Source: an uncultured Clostridiaceae bacterium (GTDB lineage: Bacteria; Bacillota; Clostridia; Lachnospirales; Lachnospiraceae). Taken from it: a stretch of 44,042 bases of DNA. The stretch is taken from assembly GCA_946185495.1 (NCBI GenBank), contig CAMHJT010000003.1:1-44042 (forward strand), in the 5' to 3' direction. Position 1 is the stretch's first letter. The number at the start of each line of letters is the position of its first letter. Shown here piece by piece: positions 18,719 to 43,921 of the stretch. The position numbers and the translations under genes were made by a program. Under the pieces are notes generated by a model. The model was not told the DNA's origin. It did no database searches and worked only from the letters and a program-made list of their open reading frames with translations.

Positions 18719-21169
18719 ATGGCAGATGGGCAGAACAATCAATTGAATGATCGGTTTTCCGAAGATTTTACGGCAAGAATGGTGGGGGGCGTTTTTGTAT
18801 GCCGCGCGGCAGGGGAACATGCGCTGCTGTACGTCAATCAGGAGCTGCTCCGTATGTATGAGTGTGAGTCGGAAGAGGAATTTTTGAAATATACAGGCGG
18901 GACCTTTGACGGGATGATGGAGACGTCGCAGCTTCAGATCGTAGCCAAGGAGCTGAATTATCAGATTCACGATGCGCATGCCGTCTTCGGCTATCTGTTT
19001 TTCAATATCACGACGCGGTTTGAGAACCTGCACAGGGTGGTGATGCACTGGACGCTTGTGGAGGACGCGACGGATGGAATGCTGTTTTACGGATCTGTCT
19101 ACCTGCATATGATCGACAACATGGGCGTGGATTTTGACGCGGTGACCAGCCTTTCAGGGAAGAAGAGGCTCAGGCGGCATATCGAGGAAATGCTCCGCCA
19201 GGAGGTGAATGTACAGATTGAGGATTACGCGATGCTATACATTAACCTGGTGAATTTCAAGCTGCTCAATATCGAGAAGGGCGTGGCAGAGGGCGACAAG
19301 TGCCTGCAGGTGATGGCCGGGATCTTAAGCAGAGTGTTCGGGGACGGGTTTGTGGCACGTCTTTCGGATGACCACTTTGTGGTGTTCTGTCCCTATAAGG
19401 GCATCTTTGAGCGGACTGCGGAGGTGGAGCGGATCTTTGGGGAAACCTATGGGAACCTGTTCAATGTGAATGGAAAGTTCGGTATTTATAGGTTTCGCTC
19501 CGAGGCAAAGGTGGATGTGGAGTCCGCGCTATCGCTGGCTAAGATGGCATGTGATTATGTCAAGTATAATATGAATACGGATATCGCGGAGTATTCAGTG
19601 TCTTTGGCGGAGAAGATCCGTACCTCGGAGTATGTGGTCGGCAAGATCGATGACGCGATTGAAAACCGGTGGATCAAGGTGTATTACCAGCCTGTGATCC
19701 GGTCACTTACCGGGTGTCTTTGCGGGTTTGAGTCCCTGGTGCGCTGGATCGATCCTGTGGTTGGATTTCTTCCGCCGGACCGTTTTATCTCGACACTGGA
19801 GAAGGAACGGTGTATCCACAAGCTGGACGTCTATATGGTGGAGCGCGTCTGTGAGTCACTGCATGAGCGGATGTCACAGGGACTGCCGGTGGTGCCGGTA
19901 TCCGTGAATTTTTCCCGCCTGGATTTCCTGCTGTGCGACATGCTGACCATCGTGGAGGATATTGTGAAGCGGTACGGGATTCCCCGTGAATACATCCACA
20001 TTGAGATCACGGAGAGCATGATCGCTTCGGATGAGGAGCTCATGCACAGGGTGGTGGATCAGTTCCGCGAGGCGGGATACCAGATCTGGATGGATGATTT
20101 CGGCAGCGGATACTCATCGCTGACAGTCCTGAAGGATTTCCAGTTTGACACCTTGAAAATGGATATGCGGTTTCTGACATCCTTTACGGAGAAGTCCAGG
20201 AGCATCATGCGGTCCACGATCGTGATGGCCAAGAATATCGGGATGCGCACGCTTGCGGAGGGCGTGGAGACCAAGGAGCAGTTTGATTTCTTAAGCTCCA
20301 TCGGCTGCGGCATGATCCAGGGATATTATTTCGGCAGGCCTGAGCCGCTGGAGGATGTATTCCGTCATCTGGAGGAAAAGGGTATTGCCATTGAGCAGCC
20401 GGAGTGGCGGGCGTTTTATGAGACTGCGGGTTTCCACGCGATTCTGACGGATGTGCCGCTTGAGATCGTGGAGGATGACGGCAGGGAATTCAGGACGCTT
20501 TTCATGAACAGCGGATTTCGCCGGCAGATCGATGAGGAGGAACTGGATCTGGCCGCATTGGACCGGAAAATTTATCATACGCATTCGCCGCTGCTCAAAA
20601 AATACCGTGAATTTGCAAACCAGATGGAAAGCAGCGGCAGGCGGGAGACTTTCTATTATACCTGTAAGGGCAGCTACATGCGGTTTGAGGGGGAGGTGCT
20701 CGCGCATTGCGGAACTCACTATATCATTGAGGCCACGATCACGAACCTGGATCTGGACAGGGACAAGGGAGAACGGGAGAGGCTCGATGTCAAGCTGAGA
20801 GACATGAACCTCATTTTTGACAATATCATTCTGGGTAATCTGAGCGGGAATACCTTGGTGCCGATCCTTGGCAGGTTCAAATATTTTGAGGCGGATGGCT
20901 CAAACAGCATAAAGCTGGCGGAAAGCATTGAAAGCCTCGTCTGTAACCGCGTCATGCCGGAGGACAGGGAACGGTGCATGAGATTTATGGATGTGTCGAC
21001 GATCAGGAGCCGGATCGAGACAAATGGAAGCGGATATGTGGAGTCTGTGTTCCGGATCCTTGAAGACGGGGACGGATATGTGCCCATGGAATTTTGTATC
21101 ATGCTGGTTCCGGGAACGGAGGCAAATGAATATCTGTTCGCGACGAAAAAATATCCGGAGGCGGAATAG
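18719..21169 (+). CDS. PAS-GGDEF(degenerate)-EAL c-di-GMP phosphodiesterase with extra C-terminal region
   Basis: The 816-residue protein has no TM segment. Residues ~15-130 look like a PAS sensor. A GGDEF-like domain follows whose active motif has decayed to SDDHF (216-220), so synthesis is not expected. The EAL domain is complete: ESLVRW with Glu338, VNFSRLDF, IEITESM, DDFGSGYSSL, KMDMRFL, EGVETKEQ and QGYYFGRP. It should cut c-di-GMP to pGpG. About 240 further residues form one or two PAS-like folds (GFHAILTDVPLEIVEDDGREF onward). Start ATG 18719 follows TTTAGGAGGG at good spacing. The gene has its own promoter and a strong terminator. The ligand is unknown; a binding role for the degenerate GGDEF, for example GTP, is possible. 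Confidence 0.92.
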   Translation: MADGQNNQLNDRFSEDFTARMVGGVFVCRAAGEHALLYVNQELLRMYECESEEEFLKYTGGTFDGMMETSQLQIVAKELNYQIHDAHAVFGYLFFNITTRFENLHRVVMHWTLVEDATDGMLFYGSVYLHMIDNMGVDFDAVTSLSGKKRLRRHIEEMLRQEVNVQIEDYAMLYINLVNFKLLNIEKGVAEGDKCLQVMAGILSRVFGDGFVARLSDDHFVVFCPYKGIFERTAEVERIFGETYGNLFNVNGKFGIYRFRSEAKVDVESALSLAKMACDYVKYNMNTDIAEYSVSLAEKIRTSEYVVGKIDDAIENRWIKVYYQPVIRSLTGCLCGFESLVRWIDPVVGFLPPDRFISTLEKERCIHKLDVYMVERVCESLHERMSQGLPVVPVSVNFSRLDFLLCDMLTIVEDIVKRYGIPREYIHIEITESMIASDEELMHRVVDQFREAGYQIWMDDFGSGYSSLTVLKDFQFDTLKMDMRFLTSFTEKSRSIMRSTIVMAKNIGMRTLAEGVETKEQFDFLSSIGCGMIQGYYFGRPEPLEDVFRHLEEKGIAIEQPEWRAFYETAGFHAILTDVPLEIVEDDGREFRTLFMNSGFRRQIDEEELDLAALDRKIYHTHSPLLKKYREFANQMESSGRRETFYYTCKGSYMRFEGEVLAHCGTHYIIEATITNLDLDRDKGERERLDVKLRDMNLIFDNIILGNLSGNTLVPILGRFKYFEADGSNSIKLAESIESLVCNRVMPEDRERCMRFMDVSTIRSRIETNGSGYVESVFRILEDGDGYVPMEFCIMLVPGTEANEYLFATKKYPEAE

Positions 21170-36254: not shown

Positions 36255-36284
36255 TTGACCGGGTTTGCCAGATAATGTTATAAT
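36255..36284 (+). promoter_or_regulatory. Promoter for the S51/GGDEF/EAL gene
   Basis: TTGACC (36255-36260) and a perfect extended -10 TGTTATAAT (TATAAT at 36279-36284) are separated by 18 bases. The leader to ATG 36414 is about 120 bases. Confidence 0.7.
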
Positions 36285-36413: not shown

Positions 36414-38813
36414 ATGAGAAGAGCGGGTATGGGTATGGTTGCATTTTTGACGAGTAGTTTTATCGTATATCAAAATAGAAAAGAATATAAAGCAGCTCCG
36501 CTGATCAATGAGAATGGATTTGAAGACCGTCTGCGGGAATATTGGAAGAAGCCGGCGCGTTTTGTGCTGTTTGCTTCGAATCCGGAGGATGCGGAGGAGA
36601 ATGATTTTAAGGCGCGTGAACTGAGGGATTCCTTTTCCCTTTCGGGATTTGAGCTGGAGGAGCTTCGCATTGTGGACAGAAGGAATGAGACTCCGCTGCA
36701 GGAGCTTCTGGCATGGGCGGATGTGCTGTATCTGGCGGGTGGACATGCGCCTACGCAGAACGCTTATATGCGGGAATGCGGACTGAAGGAGAAGCTTAAC
36801 AGTTTTGACGGAATTTTGCTGGGATTAAGCGCCGGTTCCCTGAACGCGGCAGATGAGGCGTATATGCTGCCGGAGTTTCCGGGAGAAGCGGCAGATCCAA
36901 AGTTTGCCCGGACGGAAGCGGGATTGGGGCTTACGAAGCTGCATATTGTACCGCACAGGGATTATTTTATAGATAAAAAGCTGGACGGCCTGCGCTTTAT
37001 GGAGGATATCCTTCTGCCGGCCAGCATGGAGCGGACGTTGTACCTGATCTCAGACGGAAGCTATTTTCTGATCCGGGATGGCCGGACTGAGTTTTACGGC
37101 AGGGGCGAGATTGTGGAGAAGGGAATCAGCAGGCCGCTGATGCAGGGTGAGATTTCAGGATCAGATGAGGTGGTGGACAGGCCGACATGGGAGACGCTGC
37201 TGCAGCACGGCTATGACTGTGTGTTTGATATTTCTCCGAAGGATCAGAGGATCCATTTCCTGCACATAGGGCTGCAGATGCTGGATGCGCTCGATTGCCC
37301 GGAGCCCATGGAGTATTTTTCGGAATTTATAGGCACGGTAAGCGACAAGATGGTCGTAGCGGAGGAAAAGAAGCCGTTTAGGGATCAGGCGGAATTTTCT
37401 GTCGTGGAGGATGAGGTCAGGACAAAGGGAAGCTATGTGCGCACGGTACACGCGCATTCAGAGGATGGGAGAAAGGCCAAGAGCGTCAGGATTTATAAGG
37501 TGCCAGGCACTTCGGACAAGCTTTTGTGTACCATATTTGACATTACTGCGGCGCTGGATCATGACTGGATGACGGATGAGTACGCGAGAAGCGGATTTTT
37601 GGAGAACGCCACGAAGCTGATCAATACGCTTCAGATTGAGAAGGGATATTCTCTCGTCTACACGAATGTGAGCGGATTCAAGGCGATCAATGACCTGTTT
37701 GGGACGCAGAGCGGTGACATGGTGCTGTTTCAGGTACGGGATATGCTGCGGGACATTCTGGATCCCATTATTTTGGGTCGCTTCGAGAATGACCAGTTTG
37801 TGCTGATCACTAGAGATCATAAGCTGACGCATGAGAATCTGAAACGGCTGTGCAACCAGACCTATGTGGAGGGCGACAAGCGGTATGTGTTCCGGATCCA
37901 GTGCGGGATCTACCGGATCCAGAAACGCGAGATCAGCGTCAACCATATGGTGGATCGGGCCAAGCTTGCGGAGAAGTCCATTGCCAATCATTTTGCGTGC
38001 CCCTATGCGTATTATGATGAGAATGTCCGCGTGAATTACGTGAAACAGCGGGTGCTGATGTCGGATATGCAGGCGGCGCTCAGGGATGAGGAGTTTAAGA
38101 TTTTCTACCAGCCCGTGGTGGAAACGAAGACCGGGAAGATCTGCGGCGCGGAAGCGCTGATCCGCTGGAAGCACCATGATTTCGGCATGGTTTCCCCGGG
38201 AGAGTTTATTCCCGTGTTTGAGAAGGAGGGAATGATCTCCAAGCTGGACAAGTTCATGGTAAATCATGTGATGGACTTTACGCAGGACCGGTGCATGATG
38301 CGCAAGCATGTCGTTCCCTGTGCCGTGAATCTCTCCAGAATGGATTTCTTTGACTCGCAGCTTATGAACCAGATCCTTCATAGGGTCGGCGGATCGGATT
38401 CCCTGCAGAGGGAGATCAAGATCGAGGTGACAGAGTCCGCCTACGCCATGCTGGAAAACAACGCGATGGAATTTTTGAGCGAGATGAAGCGCAACGGGAT
38501 TCAGATCCTGCTGGACGATTATGGAAGCGGCATGTCGTCGCTGTCCACGCTGGAGAGCTTTGCGTTTGACGTGGTGAAGCTGGATATGGGATTTATCAGG
38601 AAGATCGGCGTCAGCAGGAAGGCGGAGGCAATTATCCGGTCCACGATCGAGCTTTCACACGCCATGGGAGCCAGGGTGACTGCGGAGGGCGTGGAGACGA
38701 TTGAGCAGAGCAGTTTCCTTCTGGATGCGGACTGTGACATGATACAGGGGTATTATTATTACCGGCCGATTCCGGAGAGTGAGTTTGTGAAGCTTCTGGA
38801 TGAAGATAAGTAA
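36414..38813 (+). CDS. Peptidase S51-like domain fused to GGDEF(degenerate)-EAL phosphodiesterase
   Basis: The 799-residue protein has no signal peptide or TM segment. Residues ~8-235 resemble the peptidase S51/class I glutaminase-like fold: VAFLTSS at the start, LYLAGGHAPTQ, and LLGLSAGS with candidate nucleophile Ser139 in GxSAG; His181 in VPHRD is a candidate triad His. A PAS-like stretch (~270-390) leads to a GGDEF-like domain whose motif has decayed to ENDQF (~458-462), so it should not make c-di-GMP. The EAL domain is complete: AEALIRW with Glu580, VNLSRMDFF, IEVTESAY, LDDYGSG, KLDMGFI, AEGVETIEQ and QGYYYYRP. It has its own promoter. ATG 36414 follows AGGGATTGTTT; later ATGs at 36429 or 36435 are possible. 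The S51-like part may act as a dipeptidase or merely as a sensor. Confidence 0.9.
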   Translation: MRRAGMGMVAFLTSSFIVYQNRKEYKAAPLINENGFEDRLREYWKKPARFVLFASNPEDAEENDFKARELRDSFSLSGFELEELRIVDRRNETPLQELLAWADVLYLAGGHAPTQNAYMRECGLKEKLNSFDGILLGLSAGSLNAADEAYMLPEFPGEAADPKFARTEAGLGLTKLHIVPHRDYFIDKKLDGLRFMEDILLPASMERTLYLISDGSYFLIRDGRTEFYGRGEIVEKGISRPLMQGEISGSDEVVDRPTWETLLQHGYDCVFDISPKDQRIHFLHIGLQMLDALDCPEPMEYFSEFIGTVSDKMVVAEEKKPFRDQAEFSVVEDEVRTKGSYVRTVHAHSEDGRKAKSVRIYKVPGTSDKLLCTIFDITAALDHDWMTDEYARSGFLENATKLINTLQIEKGYSLVYTNVSGFKAINDLFGTQSGDMVLFQVRDMLRDILDPIILGRFENDQFVLITRDHKLTHENLKRLCNQTYVEGDKRYVFRIQCGIYRIQKREISVNHMVDRAKLAEKSIANHFACPYAYYDENVRVNYVKQRVLMSDMQAALRDEEFKIFYQPVVETKTGKICGAEALIRWKHHDFGMVSPGEFIPVFEKEGMISKLDKFMVNHVMDFTQDRCMMRKHVVPCAVNLSRMDFFDSQLMNQILHRVGGSDSLQREIKIEVTESAYAMLENNAMEFLSEMKRNGIQILLDDYGSGMSSLSTLESFAFDVVKLDMGFIRKIGVSRKAEAIIRSTIELSHAMGARVTAEGVETIEQSSFLLDADCDMIQGYYYYRPIPESEFVKLLDEDK

Positions 38814-39077: not shown

Positions 39078-39680
39078 ATGAGGCTTTATTTGATCCGGCA
39101 TGGAATGACGAGGGGAAACATGGAAAAACGCTATGTGGGCACCACAGATGAGGTGCTGCTTCCACGGGCGGAGCGGATGCTCCGGCACTGCCGTGAGGAG
39201 AAGGGCAGGCTGCTTGGGCAGGTGGAGCTGGTGGTTGCAAGCCCGATGCTGCGGTGCAGGCAGACGGCTGAAATCCTGTTTCCGGACCAGCCGCTTCAGG
39301 TCGAAACGGATTTCAGGGAGTGTGATTTTGGGGCCTTTGAGTACCGCAATTATGTGGAACTGCAGGGAAATCCAGACTATCAGAGGTTCATTGACACCTG
39401 TGGACAGAGCGAGTTTCCAGGAGGCGAGCAGCCGGGGGAATTCCGGCAAAGATGCCGGAACGCGTTCGAGGGCTGGCTTCCCGTGTTTTCCAGGGTGCAG
39501 GCAGCGGCGCTTGTCGTGCATGGAGGAACGATCATGTCGGTTATGGAATGCTTTGCGGTACCGCACAGGGATTACTACTGCTGGCAGGTGGAAAACGGGA
39601 GGGGCTACGCGGCGGAGCTTGTCATTGGCGGCCGGGTGGGAGAGATGCCCTGCCGGATCATGGAAGTGTCTGAATTCTGA
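39078..39680 (+). CDS. cobC: Histidine phosphatase, probable alpha-ribazole phosphatase (CobC-like)
   Basis: The 200-residue phosphoglycerate-mutase-fold protein has the phosphohistidine motif LIRHGMTRGN near the N-terminus. It also has VVASPMLRCRQTAEIL, the acidic FRECDFGAFE and the second His in VVHGGTIMSV. In cobalamin synthesis CobC removes the phosphate of alpha-ribazole-5'-phosphate (or of the adenosylcobalamin phosphate). Assignment rests on the following cbiB, cobD and cobQ genes; the fold alone is not specific. ATG 39078 follows GGGGCAGGAAG. The frame extends upstream without support. It is separated from cbiB by about 210 bases. Confidence 0.85.
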   Translation: MRLYLIRHGMTRGNMEKRYVGTTDEVLLPRAERMLRHCREEKGRLLGQVELVVASPMLRCRQTAEILFPDQPLQVETDFRECDFGAFEYRNYVELQGNPDYQRFIDTCGQSEFPGGEQPGEFRQRCRNAFEGWLPVFSRVQAAALVVHGGTIMSVMECFAVPHRDYYCWQVENGRGYAAELVIGGRVGEMPCRIMEVSEF

Positions 39681-39893
39681 TCAGAGACCGGCACAAAGGC
39701 ACCGCGTTTCATGTACGGTCACGCATAAAGGCTGCGGACGGAGTACAGGAACGCCGTGTAGTGATCGGATTTCATGCCGAGGCGCGAAAAAACGATCTGC
39801 CGGGAGAAGCCGGGTATGTAACAGGTCGATCTATGGGATGAACTGCTGCATGAAGGATAAAAAATGCGAAAAATACATGGAAACGGAGTTGGC

Positions 39894-40889
39894 ATGAAGG
39901 AAAGAATAGTGGTACTTTGTCTGGGAGTGGTTCTGGATCTTGCGCTGGGAGATCCGCATGGTCTGTGGCATCCGGTCAGGGGGATCGGCTGGCTGATAGA
40001 ACGGACGGAAACGGCGCTTCGCAGGGCGTTTTCAATCGCGGAGGAGAGGGAGCTCCACCGTGGGAGAAAGCGGGCTGCCGGAGCAGTCCTCGCGGTCTGG
40101 GTGCCCGCGGTATCTGTGGGGATCGCGGCAGGTCTTCGCTGTCTGTTTTTTGAGGCTGGAAGCCTTGCGGGCTGTCTGTTCGACGTGGTGCTCTGCTATC
40201 AGATGCTTGCCATGCGTTCCCTGAGGGATGAGAGCATGAAGGTGGCTAAGGAGCTTGAAGGGCAGGGGCTTTCCGCGGCGAGACAGGCGGTGTCCATGAT
40301 CGTGGGAAGGGATACCGCCTGCCTGACGCGTGAGGGAGTGATCCGGGCCGCAGTGGAGACCGTGGCCGAGAATACCTCTGACGGGGTTGTGGCTCCAATA
40401 CTCTATATGCTGGCATTTGGCCCGCTTGGCGGTGTGTTTTACAAGGCGGTCAACACGATGGACTCCATGATCGGATACAGGAATGACAGGTATTGTTATT
40501 TCGGGACGGCTGCAGCCAGGCTGGATGATGTGCTGAATTGGCTGCCGGCCAGAATTTCCGGGCTCTGCATGGTTGCCGCGTCCGGTCTGCTCGGAATGGA
40601 TGCCGCAGGCGCATGGAGGATTTTTCGCAGGGACAGGTACCGGCACAAGAGCCCCAATTCGGCGCAGACCGAGGCAGCCTGCGCGGGCGCGCTGGGAATC
40701 CAGCTTGCGGGGGATGCGGTGTATTTCGGGAAAACGGTCCACAAGCCGCTGATCGGGGACGCGCTCCGGCCTGTGGAGGCTTCAGATATCGGAAGGGCCA
40801 ACAGGCTGATGATGGGTGCCTCCTTTCTGGCGCTGGCAGCGGGCATTGCATTGTCACAGCTGCTCATGCTCTGTGGCGTCTGGAACTGA
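39894..40889 (+). CDS. cbiB: Adenosylcobinamide-phosphate synthase
   Basis: The 331-residue membrane enzyme attaches aminopropanol phosphate (or aminopropanol) to adenosylcobyric acid. Family marks are DLALGDPHGLWHPVRGIGW at the start, ETVAENTSDGVVAPILYM in the middle, KAVNTMDSMIGYRNDRY, and SPNSAQTEAACAGALGIQL. Several hydrophobic helices are visible. Two starts are possible: ATG 39894 (MKERIVVL) after ACGGAG, or ATG 39864 after AAGGAT, ten residues longer. Its product partner is the threonine-phosphate decarboxylase at 41202. Confidence 0.93.
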   Translation: MKERIVVLCLGVVLDLALGDPHGLWHPVRGIGWLIERTETALRRAFSIAEERELHRGRKRAAGAVLAVWVPAVSVGIAAGLRCLFFEAGSLAGCLFDVVLCYQMLAMRSLRDESMKVAKELEGQGLSAARQAVSMIVGRDTACLTREGVIRAAVETVAENTSDGVVAPILYMLAFGPLGGVFYKAVNTMDSMIGYRNDRYCYFGTAAARLDDVLNWLPARISGLCMVAASGLLGMDAAGAWRIFRRDRYRHKSPNSAQTEAACAGALGIQLAGDAVYFGKTVHKPLIGDALRPVEASDIGRANRLMMGASFLALAAGIALSQLLMLCGVWN

Positions 40890-41201
40890 GAGGCGCCTTG
40901 TATGGAGGGCTTGCACAAAAGCCTCAGTCTATATTTTGAGTTCCACAATTGCCTATAAAGAAGATGGCTATAAAAGTTTATATCGAACAAAAGATATGGG
41001 GTTGCTTTCTAAAATATCCTCGAATAGTGTACTGGCAAAGGCCTTGTTCGATATTCAAAGTATACAGGCAGCCTGAGTCGCATCAGGTAGAGGCATCAGG
41101 CTTATGCCATGAAAAGAGCAGAACAGATTCTTGTTCTGTGAGTTTATAAATATCAACCACGAGTTGGTAAATAGTCAGGAAGATTACAGGGAGGATGGAA
41201 G
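40890..41201. other. AT-rich spacer between cbiB and cobD
   Basis: The 312 bases are clearly richer in A and T than the flanking cobalamin genes. They contain short inverted repeats (TATCAAC/GTTGGTA near 41149-41167, GCCTGA/TCAGGC near 41071-41102). Short open frames have no recognisable product. No cobalamin riboswitch box was seen. It may be a decayed insertion. Confidence 0.5.
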
Positions 41202-42254
41202 ATGGCGCGGGCAAAGCATGGGGGAGATATCTACAGGCAGGCTGTGAGGCTGGATTTTTCGACAAACGTCAATCCGCTTGGCATGCCTGCCGGCTGCAGG
41301 GACGCGTTCCTGTCCTCTTTTTCCATGGCGTCCCGGTATCCGGATCCGGAAGCGGAGGAGCTGTGCCTTGCCATAGCGGAAGCGGAACAGGTGGATAAAA
41401 GACAGGTAGTGCCGGGAAATGGAGCTTCTGAACTGATCTACGGCTTATGCCGGGCGGTCAGGCCCCGGAGGGCGCTTGTGACAGCTCCGGCCTTTTCGGA
41501 ATATGAAGCCGCGGTGAGGGCTTCCGGCGGCGATATGGCGTACTGCCCGCTGAGGGAGGAGGAGGGCTTCCGGTTTCCCGCGGATCGCTTTGCGGACGGG
41601 ATCACGGAGGACGTTCAGCTCGTTTTTGTCTGCAATCCCAATAATCCTACCGGCGTTACGATCACGAAGGCACAGATGGAGCAGATTGCGGAACGTTGTG
41701 TGGAGGCAGGGGCAGCCCTGTGCGTGGACGAGTGTTTTCTTCCCTTTTTAGAGCGGGAGAAGGAGCTTAGCATGAAAAATCTGCTTGACAGATACCCGAA
41801 TCTGGTGGTGCTTCGCGCGTTTACCAAGTTTTACGGCATGCCGGGGCTAAGGCTGGGGTACGCCCTGGCCGCCGGGGAGGAGCTGAGGGAGCGGATCGAA
41901 ATGTGCCTGCCGCCCTGGAGGATTTCCGCGCCTGCGCAAATGGCAGGGATCGCAGCGCTTCAGGATGTCGCCTTTGCCGCCCGCACCAGGGCTTATGTGC
42001 AGGAACAGAAGGAGTTTCTCCTGCGGCAGATGGAACAGGGGCTTGCGGAGAAAATCTACGGTTCCGGGGCAAATTTTATTTTTTTTAAGGGCAGGCCTGA
42101 CCTGGCAGAGCGCCTGCAAAAACAGGGCATTCTGATCCGCTCCTGCGATGATTACCGGAACCTGCGAGAAGGATATTTCCGGATCGCGGTGCGGACGAGG
42201 GCGGAAAATGAGGAGCTGATCCGCTTCTGGAGGCTGCTGGACGGTGAAACCTGA
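41202..42254 (+). CDS. cobD: Threonine-phosphate decarboxylase
   Basis: The 350-residue PLP enzyme converts L-threonine phosphate to aminopropanol phosphate for the nucleotide loop of cobalamin. It opens with HGGDIYRQAVRLDFSTNVNPLG, typical of CobD. It then shows VVPGNGASELIYGL, VFVCNPNNPTG, CVDECFLPF, and the Schiff-base Lys in RAFTKFYGMPGLRLGY. It differs from histidinol-phosphate aminotransferase, its closest relative, by the N-terminal motif and the genetic context. ATG 41202 follows CAGGGAGGATGGAAG. It lies between cbiB and cobQ. Confidence 0.93.
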   Translation: MARAKHGGDIYRQAVRLDFSTNVNPLGMPAGCRDAFLSSFSMASRYPDPEAEELCLAIAEAEQVDKRQVVPGNGASELIYGLCRAVRPRRALVTAPAFSEYEAAVRASGGDMAYCPLREEEGFRFPADRFADGITEDVQLVFVCNPNNPTGVTITKAQMEQIAERCVEAGAALCVDECFLPFLEREKELSMKNLLDRYPNLVVLRAFTKFYGMPGLRLGYALAAGEELRERIEMCLPPWRISAPAQMAGIAALQDVAFAARTRAYVQEQKEFLLRQMEQGLAEKIYGSGANFIFFKGRPDLAERLQKQGILIRSCDDYRNLREGYFRIAVRTRAENEELIRFWRLLDGET

Positions 42255-42418
42255 TCCGGCAGGTAAGCGGCTGCGCAGCTTACCGGTATATATGGAACCA
42301 GACCATTGCGCGCTGTATACTGACCGGGATCTCATCCGGCTTACCGGGTGTATCGGGAACAGACAGAAGGGCTCAGTTTGTAGAAAGCGGGCCGTATTAT
42401 CAGAGGAGGGGAGAACAG

Positions 42419-43921
42419 ATGCGTGCAAAACCGATCATGATCCAGGGAACGATGTCAAATGTGGGAAAGAGCCTGATCACGGCGGGGCTTTGCAGGATAT
42501 TTTTGCAGGACGGATACCGTGTGGCGCCGTTTAAGTCCCAGAATATGGCGCTTAATTCCTATATCACAAAGGACGGACTGGAGATCGGGAGGGCGCAGGC
42601 GGTTCAGGCGGAGGCGGCCGGCGTGGAGCCGGTGGCGGCGATGAATCCCATTTTGCTGAAGCCTGTGACGGACATGGGATCCCAGGTGATCGTGAACGGC
42701 AGGGTGATGGGAAATATGCGTGCGGCGGATTATTTCAGGAGGAAGAAGGAGTTTATCCCGGTGATACGATCCGCGTATGAAAGCCTAGCGGCCTCTCATG
42801 ATATCATTGTGATCGAGGGCGCCGGAAGCCCGGCGGAGATCAATCTGAAGCAGGATGACATCGTGAACATGGGCATGGCGGAAATCGCCGACGCGCCGGT
42901 GCTGCTGGTGGGAGATATCGACCGCGGTGGCGTGTTCGCCCAGATGGTGGGAACGGTCATGCTGCTGGAGCCGGAGGAGCGGGAACGAATCCGCGGACTT
43001 ATCATCAATAAGTTCCGGGGGGACAGAGCCCTTCTTGCGCCGGGGCTTTCCATGCTGGAGGAGCGGTGCGGGAAGCCTGTGCTGGGGGTGGTGCCGTATC
43101 TTGATGTCAGCCTGGAGGAGGAGGATTCCCTGGGGGACAGCCTGCGGCAGTACAGGATGGAAAAGGAGCTGGATGTGGCGGTGATCCGGCTGCCAAGGAT
43201 ATCCAATTATACGGATTTTCAGGCGCTTTCCATGGAACCGCTTGTGTCGGTCCGGTATGTGTCCTCGGTGCGGGAGCTTGGGACGCCGGATCTTGTTGTT
43301 CTGCCCGGCACCAAGAGCACCATAAGCGATATGAACTGGCTGCGGGAAAGCGGGCTTGCGGCCGCACTGCTTCGCCTGGCAGCGATGCCGCAGGAACATG
43401 CTCCCCTGATCTTCGGAATCTGCGGAGGCTATCAGATGCTCGGCCGTACCATCAGCGACCCGGAAGGCGTGGAGGGGGGCGGCTCTGTTTCCGGCCTGGA
43501 TCTTCTTCCGGTGGAGACCTGCCTGCAGGCGGCCAAGACCACAAGGCAGGTACAGGGAAAGACGCTTGCGCTTCGCGGGGCGTTTGAGGCGCTTTCGGGG
43601 CAGCCGGTTGGGGGATACGAGATCCACATGGGACAAACCATTCTGTATGGGGACGGATTTTTGGAGCTTTCCGGAGAAAATGGAGTGCCGCTGCGGGAGG
43701 GCTGCGTACAGGGCGGCGTGGCCGGAACCTATCTGCATGGCATTTTTGACGGGGATGATTTCCGGGGCGCCTTGGTCAGGCTTTTGTGCGGCAGAAAGGG
43801 ACTGAATCCGGAGGAAAACAGGCAGGATTACACAGCCTTTAAGCAGCGGGAGTACGACAGGCTGGCTGCGTGCCTGCGGGAAAGCCTGGATCTTGAACGG
43901 ATCCTTGAGGGTACCGTGTAG
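42419..43921 (+). CDS. cobQ: Adenosylcobyric acid synthase (glutamine-hydrolysing)
   Basis: The 500-residue enzyme amidates four side chains of adenosylcobyrinic acid a,c-diamide using ATP and glutamine. The N-terminal synthetase half shows GTMSNVGKSLITAGLCRIF, FKSQNMALNSYIT, EGAGSPAEINL and GDIDRGGVFAQM. The C-terminal glutaminase half has the nucleophile Cys in FGICGGYQMLG, then GYEIHMG and GTYLHGIFDG. ATG 42419 follows GAGGAGGGGAGAACAG. The last base of the TAG stop (43921) is also the first base of a putative group II intron. Confidence 0.95.
   Translation: MRAKPIMIQGTMSNVGKSLITAGLCRIFLQDGYRVAPFKSQNMALNSYITKDGLEIGRAQAVQAEAAGVEPVAAMNPILLKPVTDMGSQVIVNGRVMGNMRAADYFRRKKEFIPVIRSAYESLAASHDIIVIEGAGSPAEINLKQDDIVNMGMAEIADAPVLLVGDIDRGGVFAQMVGTVMLLEPEERERIRGLIINKFRGDRALLAPGLSMLEERCGKPVLGVVPYLDVSLEEEDSLGDSLRQYRMEKELDVAVIRLPRISNYTDFQALSMEPLVSVRYVSSVRELGTPDLVVLPGTKSTISDMNWLRESGLAAALLRLAAMPQEHAPLIFGICGGYQMLGRTISDPEGVEGGGSVSGLDLLPVETCLQAAKTTRQVQGKTLALRGAFEALSGQPVGGYEIHMGQTILYGDGFLELSGENGVPLREGCVQGGVAGTYLHGIFDGDDFRGALVRLLCGRKGLNPEENRQDYTAFKQREYDRLAACLRESLDLERILEGTV

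Follow-up and report, generated by a model that had tools for sequence, protein, structure and literature searches.

A divergent S51 peptidase-like domain fused to a c-di-GMP phosphodiesterase in Butyrivibrio and its kin: repeated change of the nucleophile and a probable role as an input domain

Introduction

EAL enzymes function as dimers, and to our knowledge the inputs of many c-di-GMP enzymes are unknown. The input of DosP is a haem PAS domain, and that of Bd1971 is a cyclic-nucleotide-binding domain. DR_1070, Lmo0363, peptidase E, MccG and the cyanophycinase CphB are free-standing enzymes of the S51 family. The catalytic triad of Salmonella PepE is given as S120-H157-E192 and that of MccG as S133-H168-D196 (PMC9239234), and a Ser-His-Asp triad is assigned to Orf2 of Streptomyces sp. 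139 (PMC11078827). Bd1971 is described as a cAMP-sensing EAL phosphodiesterase in which a small-molecule-binding domain controls the EAL domain (PMC6717892).

The protein described here matches Bd1971 (6hq4) by sequence, and matches DosP (9clo) and the "Motility regulator" 4rnh over its GGDEF and EAL domains. Unlike Bd1971, its candidate input is an enzyme fold with a nucleophile, and unlike the free-standing S51 peptidases, its S51 domain forms the N-terminus of a signalling enzyme and lacks the nucleophile in 13 of 61 family members. The literature searched, with subscription papers and domain databases outside its scope, held no description of an S51 domain joined to an EAL domain and nothing on pseudoenzyme sensor domains of EAL proteins. 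Dipeptidase E or S51-type names did not occur together with c-di-GMP or GGDEF among the matches listed; the match for amidotransferase-GGDEF/EAL fusions was work on FleQ targets, and that for Butyrivibrio with an EAL domain and c-di-GMP was a review of flagellar filaments. The architecture may well be listed already in protein databases. What is new here is that the S51 nucleophile has been replaced in 13 of 61 fusions while the EAL residues are intact in all 59 fusions that reach them, and that purifying selection on the S51 domain persists in Ser-lost pairs.

Here, we describe a computational analysis of this fusion, its distribution and its evolution. The window, meaning the whole 44,042-nucleotide stretch analysed, comes from an uncultured Clostridiaceae bacterium (contig CAMHJT010000003.1, assembly GCA_946185495.1) that GTDB places in the Lachnospiraceae, a gut family. 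We present evidence that an S51-derived, ligand-binding domain probably serves as the input of a predicted c-di-GMP phosphodiesterase.

Results

A single reading frame joins four domains

A sequence-only reading of the locus had proposed one continuous frame in which an S51-like N-terminus, with an intact GxSAG nucleophile (Ser139) and a candidate His181, is followed by a PAS-like region, a decayed GGDEF domain and a catalytically complete EAL domain. Every element of this description except the PAS label was borne out by the analysis. The frame is unbroken on the forward strand from 36408 or 36414 to 38813, and comprises 799 residues counted from ATG 36414, the numbering used here. Because four aligned relatives begin at Met8, the true start is probably ATG 36435, which places the gene at 36435..38813 (+); the other in-frame start codons are ATG 36429, ATG 36414 and TTG 36408. 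Upstream, a consensus scan picked out a putative sigma-70-like promoter (TTGACC-18-TATAAT with an extended TG, 11 of 12 matches) at 36255..36284 (+), one of 8 sites found on both strands of the whole stretch where 3.0 are expected. An Rfam scan of the window and three other loci returned no riboswitch or other match in the window, and a single tRNA in one of the other loci (L034). Pfam places three domains on the one chain: S51 at residues 46-224, GGDEF at 382-517 and EAL at 551-785.

The S51 / class I amidotransferase-like domain occupies residues 8-238 (36435..37127, +), its ends being taken from alignments with relatives. It is a divergent member of Peptidase family S51: the PF03575 match reaches 33.2 bits (E 5.3e-8) against a curated cut-off of 23.9. 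This profile matches 49 of 59 fusions at E 0.01 or better; among the fused relatives, protein P0004 falls under the cut-off and P0005 has no PF03575 match. A search of solved structures, using a profile built from fused and stand-alone S51 domains together, matched DR_1070 (6iru, and 6a4t, annotated "Peptidase E" and identical in the aligned part) and Lmo0363 (3l4e). As in DR_1070, the domain has a GxSAG elbow, a PH histidine and an Asp-Gly in register. In the alignment to 6iru, Ser139 (codon AGC, 36828..36830, +), the nucleophile of an LSAGS elbow, falls on the SAG serine; His181 (CAC, 36954..36956, +), the candidate catalytic histidine, falls on the PH histidine; and Asp214 (GAC, 37053..37055, +) falls on the Asp of Asp-Gly. 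The alignment to 3l4e supports the first two positions and stops short of Asp214. His181 is kept in 60 of 61 fused proteins and in all 25 stand-alone relatives, and Asp214 in 61 of 61 fused proteins and 23 of 25 stand-alone ones, the other two having Asn. By homology, the third acid of the triad is most likely Asp214. Since the window protein keeps the whole site (Ser139, His181, Asp214, Glu158 and both the GGH and SAG loops), its S51 domain can probably hydrolyse its putative ligand.

Between the S51 and GGDEF domains lies an unnamed linker domain of about 130 residues (approximately residues 250-381; 37161..37556, +), which is conserved in S51-fused and S51-less relatives alike. Its PAS-like appearance, noted by eye, found no backing in profile searches: only one of the 26 members of its alignment (A5) touched a PAS profile (PAS_9, E 0.089), and the profile of that alignment matched no solved structure in the PDB. 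The GGDEF domain (residues 382-517; 37557..37964, +; PF00990, E 1.2e-12) has RFENDQF (37779..37799, +) in place of RxGGDEF, and is enzymatically dead as judged from this motif; GG[DE]EF was present in none of the 61 fused and 14 S51-less proteins. The EAL domain (residues 551-785; 38064..38768, +) scores 212.8 bits (E 6e-63) and holds the complete catalytic set, E580, N639, E671, E674, D701, D702, K722, E758 and Q778. The metal- and substrate-binding residues scored are the set known from the EAL literature, and they are intact in all 59 fusions that reach them. The window protein is predicted to be a soluble c-di-GMP phosphodiesterase. In a structure search, the S51 part matched 6iru and 6a4t only, weakly, among the best 60 of 64 matches, and none of the matches spanned the S51 and EAL parts together.

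The source genome contains 14 EAL matches, two of them partial, and the fusion locus is its sole match to the S51 part. A second EAL protein lies in the window at 18719-21169, with its EAL match at 19646-20341 and extra regions on both sides.

The fusion recurs across the family

Among 299 sampled genomes of the window's family, the S51 part was matched at E 0.001 or better in 45, and five genomes of five genera, including the window's own, carry an S51-GGDEF-EAL frame of about 800 residues. The four other fused proteins of this sample are 44-48% identical to the window protein over its whole length. The window's genus had one further genome in the sample (G188), which gave no match to the S51 part. 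A scan of named genomes with an S51-linker-GGDEF alignment yielded 76 loci, of which 60 are usable fused frames, two are broken or cut (L090 and L101, respectively, and left out of all S51 counts) and 14 are S51-less, that is, linker-GGDEF-EAL with no S51 match anywhere on the locus. These counts are lower bounds, as the scan relied on two short peptide patterns. Near full length is reached by 58 of the 60 further fused frames, with identities of 40-53%, and many come from isolate Butyrivibrio; four of the 60 (L046, L075, L082 and L085) are genes already found in the family sample, and L076 is the gene of genome G556. The 76 loci are assigned to Lachnospiraceae or Butyrivibrio in 70 cases, and otherwise to Clostridiales (2), Clostridium sp., Eubacterium sp., Candidatus Colinaster and "bacterium".

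No fused frame was found outside the window's family in samples of its order (295 genomes) and phylum (299 genomes). An S51 profile (A3) matched in 37 genomes of the order sample, where the S51-EAL frame occurs in the window genome, G556 and G529, and in 11 genomes of the phylum sample, where it occurs in the window genome only. The S51-GGDEF-EAL copy in G529 (L127:3687-5660, -) has a frame that ends inside the EAL domain (profile positions 3-105 of 236), and its phosphodiesterase looks broken. PF03575 surveys matched 106 of 295 genomes of the order and at least 188 of 299 of the phylum; since they gave no match on the window genome itself, these surveys do not exclude divergent fusions. A plasmid search returned, among its best 5000 records, none that covered 80% of the window protein.

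The S51-EAL architecture is a real and old family that recurs beyond chance, because it is found in 60 further open reading frames and in five genera of the family sample. This bears on the idea that two adjacent genes were misread as one through faulty assembly or annotation, for which it could be said that the window genome is fragmented into 257 contigs. The identical junction, without a stop codon, is found in 60 other frames, including those on contigs of isolate Butyrivibrio; this recurrence refutes the idea, and we regard its probability as next to nil.

The surveys also met S51 domains in other company, and six further long S51 frames were inspected. One 720-residue chain (L036:4294-6456) joins a distant S51 domain to an APH phosphotransferase and a GNAT acetyltransferase; in L128:2685-4133 (-) an S51 domain is fused to a SAM-dependent methyltransferase, and S51 frames of similar length (488-506 residues) occur in G356, G568 and G529. 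In L131:2146-3903 (-) two GNAT stretches lie behind the S51 domain in a single chain, L130 has two S51 matches on a single frame, and L129:2930-5014 (-) has a MutS-type domain and then S51 in one frame, putatively a single gene. A stand-alone-type S51 frame in L030 runs into an RsmH-like methyltransferase (590 residues; partner named by eye), and G175 has a 566-residue frame among the further long S51 frames.

The neighbourhood of the gene differs among loci

In the window, the fusion gene sits between luxS (PF02664; 35592-36116) and a cobalamin-type run at 39078-43921, comprising genes for a histidine phosphatase, CbiB, an aminotransferase and a CobQ-like protein. Cob-type genes, named by eye, also lie downstream of the fusion in G068 (L031). 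Clustering of the open reading frames up to 6 kb from each of 76 genes, that of the window and those of 75 scan loci (all except L101), gave no cluster in more than 14 loci; for the commonest clusters, the representative loci belonged to a single close clade. In the absence of a widespread neighbour cluster, the neighbourhood points to no partner gene, no general link to cob genes and no hint of the ligand.

A probable single origin of the fused S51 domain and repeated changes in its presence

Stand-alone S51-like proteins of about 250 residues occur in the same bacterial family. They are approximately 34-45% identical to the fused domain and have the GGHVPTQN and SAG motifs in common with the fusions; they differ in having no EAL domain, in forming a separate clade and in keeping both Ser139 and His181 in 25 of 25 cases, two of which (L026 and L030) lie in longer open frames. 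The 61 fused S51 domains group together in a single clade, apart from these 25 (support 100/100, 100% of 200 bootstrap trees), which fits a single fusion.

A maximum-likelihood tree of the GGDEF-EAL columns only was built from 72 proteins (59 fused and 13 S51-less; L067 and L083, which are cut and also left out of the EAL counts, and L105 were excluded, and L060 was retained though it starts at a contig end). An earlier tree with five paralogues as outgroup was dropped because poor trimming had left it with branches as long as 10. On the GGDEF-EAL tree, with 13 of the 14 S51-less proteins included, presence and absence of the S51 domain requires six changes, at least five of which are forced. 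As the tree is unrooted, it does not show which of the S51-less proteins are losses. An input module that can be swapped would be expected to show repeated change of this kind.

The nearest relative of the window protein, L074, is S51-less and is 73% identical to it over 418 GGDEF-EAL columns. L074 starts with 22 residues peculiar to it; the alignment that follows joins the window protein at window residue 227 and is 50% identical over 157 residues, so that the aligned part opens with a remnant of the last part of the S51 domain. The start of the L074 frame lies no more than 30 bases from the point where a different long frame ends. The input domain thus seems to have been deleted, as observed in a single contig of a metagenome-assembled genome (MAG).

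The S51 fold might serve only in dimerisation or localisation of the phosphodiesterase, with its active site a relic. Purifying selection and conservation of the pocket fit such a structural or dimerising role too, as does the dimer as the working form of EAL enzymes. The domain is, however, absent from otherwise similar proteins, and hence dispensable for a complete EAL domain; moreover, retention of Ser, His181, Glu158 and Gly109-110 by 48 of 61 members, at a mean S51 identity of about 48%, is more than one would expect of a pure scaffold. We consider a purely structural role quite improbable.

The S51 domain remains under selection after loss of its nucleophile

Of the 61 fused proteins, 48 have Ser at position 139, 12 have Gly and one has Asn, whereas all 25 stand-alone relatives keep Ser. 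The codon is AGY in 41 and TCN in seven of those that keep Ser, and GGN in 12 and AAT in one of the others. Error in MAG sequences is an unlikely cause, since strain names with no MAG label identify seven of the 13 Ser-lost records (Butyrivibrio AE3009, INlla16, MB2005, FCS014, MC2013 and WCD3002, and Lachnospiraceae P6A3). On the GGDEF-EAL tree the state of this residue changes eight times, at least five of these changes being forced by well-supported branches, although such counts cannot separate gain from loss.

Selection was assessed in 18 hand-chosen pairs (six Ser-lost, ten Ser-kept and two mixed), several of them near saturation of dS. The six Ser-lost pairs are non-independent and come from three clades: four pairs among L091, L092, L093 and L099, together with L087-L088 and L069-L100. 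In these six pairs, dN/dS of the S51 domain is 0.10-0.14, as compared with 0.06-0.17 in the eight Ser-kept pairs with an S51 dS above 0.2; two further Ser-kept pairs, with an S51 dS of 0.05 or less, give 0.25-0.26. Because of these low ratios in the Ser-lost pairs, we conclude that the S51 domain is still selected for without its nucleophile, and a fold constrained even in this state is what a structural role would also predict. The EAL domain is held more tightly in the same pairs (0.02-0.04). The two mixed pairs, each of one Ser-lost and one Ser-kept protein, stand at 0.22-0.23, and constraint may therefore be weaker around the change of Ser. Mean pairwise identity of the S51 domain is 0.48 among Ser-kept, 0.48 among Ser-lost and 0.47 among stand-alone proteins.

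The pocket was compared at the 32 positions that are invariant in the 25 stand-alone domains. All 13 Ser-lost proteins retain Gly110, Gly141 and Asn144, and 12 retain His181; looser positions are Gly109 and Glu158 (nine kept each), His111 and Pro113 (six each) and Thr114 (four). Pro153 and Asp214 are likewise retained by all 13. The pattern resembles a pocket preserved in the Ser-lost lines after its chemistry has gone, but co-loss of other pocket residues with Ser139 was non-significant when relatedness was allowed for, with only five independent pairs. Among the 48 fusions with Ser, Gly109, Gly110, Glu158 and His181 are retained without exception, and other positions vary (His111 kept in 41, Thr114 in 41, Ala140 in 37 and Met143 in eight). 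As every Ser-kept protein keeps Gly109, Glu158 and His181, catalysis itself may be selected in most members.

One alternative is a bifunctional enzyme without allostery: hydrolase and phosphodiesterase, both active, would share a chain because the two are required jointly, with no control of one by the other. Consistent with such an arrangement, Ser is present in 48 of 61 fusions, all with the four residues just named, and each of the five genomes of the family sample with a fusion, the window's included, has a single S51 match, the fused one. Yet Ser139 has been lost in 13 of 61 proteins in which the S51 domain remains under purifying selection and the EAL site is undecayed, and G556 holds both a fused and a stand-alone S51 copy. 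We regard uncoupled bifunctionality as unlikely. The repeated loss of the nucleophile argues against hydrolysis being indispensable to what the domain does in every lineage.

Discussion

We favour, with some reserve, the interpretation that an S51-derived ligand-binding input domain controls the c-di-GMP phosphodiesterase. The sequence-only reading had likewise proposed that the N-terminal domain regulates c-di-GMP breakdown, and this proposal gains indirect, evolutionary support: the domain is under purifying selection, some relatives lack it altogether, and 13 of 61 proteins have lost its nucleophile, with the EAL site undamaged in all 59 that reach it. The sequence-only reading further suggested, more speculatively, that an Asp-containing dipeptide could be the ligand and that nitrogen or peptide status could be the input. 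A single fusion, continued constraint, absence as a block and loss of the nucleophile ahead of an intact EAL domain together amount to the behaviour of an input domain.

In a mechanism that fits this interpretation, the S51 pocket would bind a small peptide-like or acyl ligand, and the linker domain together with the dead GGDEF domain would relay its occupancy to the EAL dimer, changing c-di-GMP breakdown there. In the window protein, hydrolysis of the ligand by the S51 domain would end the signal. In several lineages, corresponding to at least five changes on the tree, the altered nucleophile would leave the S51 domain as a plain sensor. What the sequences show is the fused frame and how well it is conserved, an EAL site that is intact, a GGDEF motif that is dead, and repeated changes both of the nucleophile and in the presence of the S51 domain; ligand binding, coupling, the direction of regulation and hydrolysis are inferred.

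A more specific and distinctly tentative version casts the protein as a signal-consuming receptor. The S51 domain would bind a peptide or acyl ligand, switch the EAL domain while the substrate or acyl-enzyme is bound, and then destroy the ligand to reset the protein, acting as a c-di-GMP timer; the lineages with Ser139 changed to Gly would be permanent ligand sensors. If this is true, the family would hold both stages of the conversion of an enzyme to a sensor.

The family offers a defined enzyme pocket as an input, together with natural variants that keep or lack the nucleophile and close relatives in which the domain is missing. Such variants allow a direct test of whether the phosphodiesterase responds to binding of the ligand or to its turnover, and would constitute a documented series from enzyme domain to sensor in anaerobes, Butyrivibrio and its kin.
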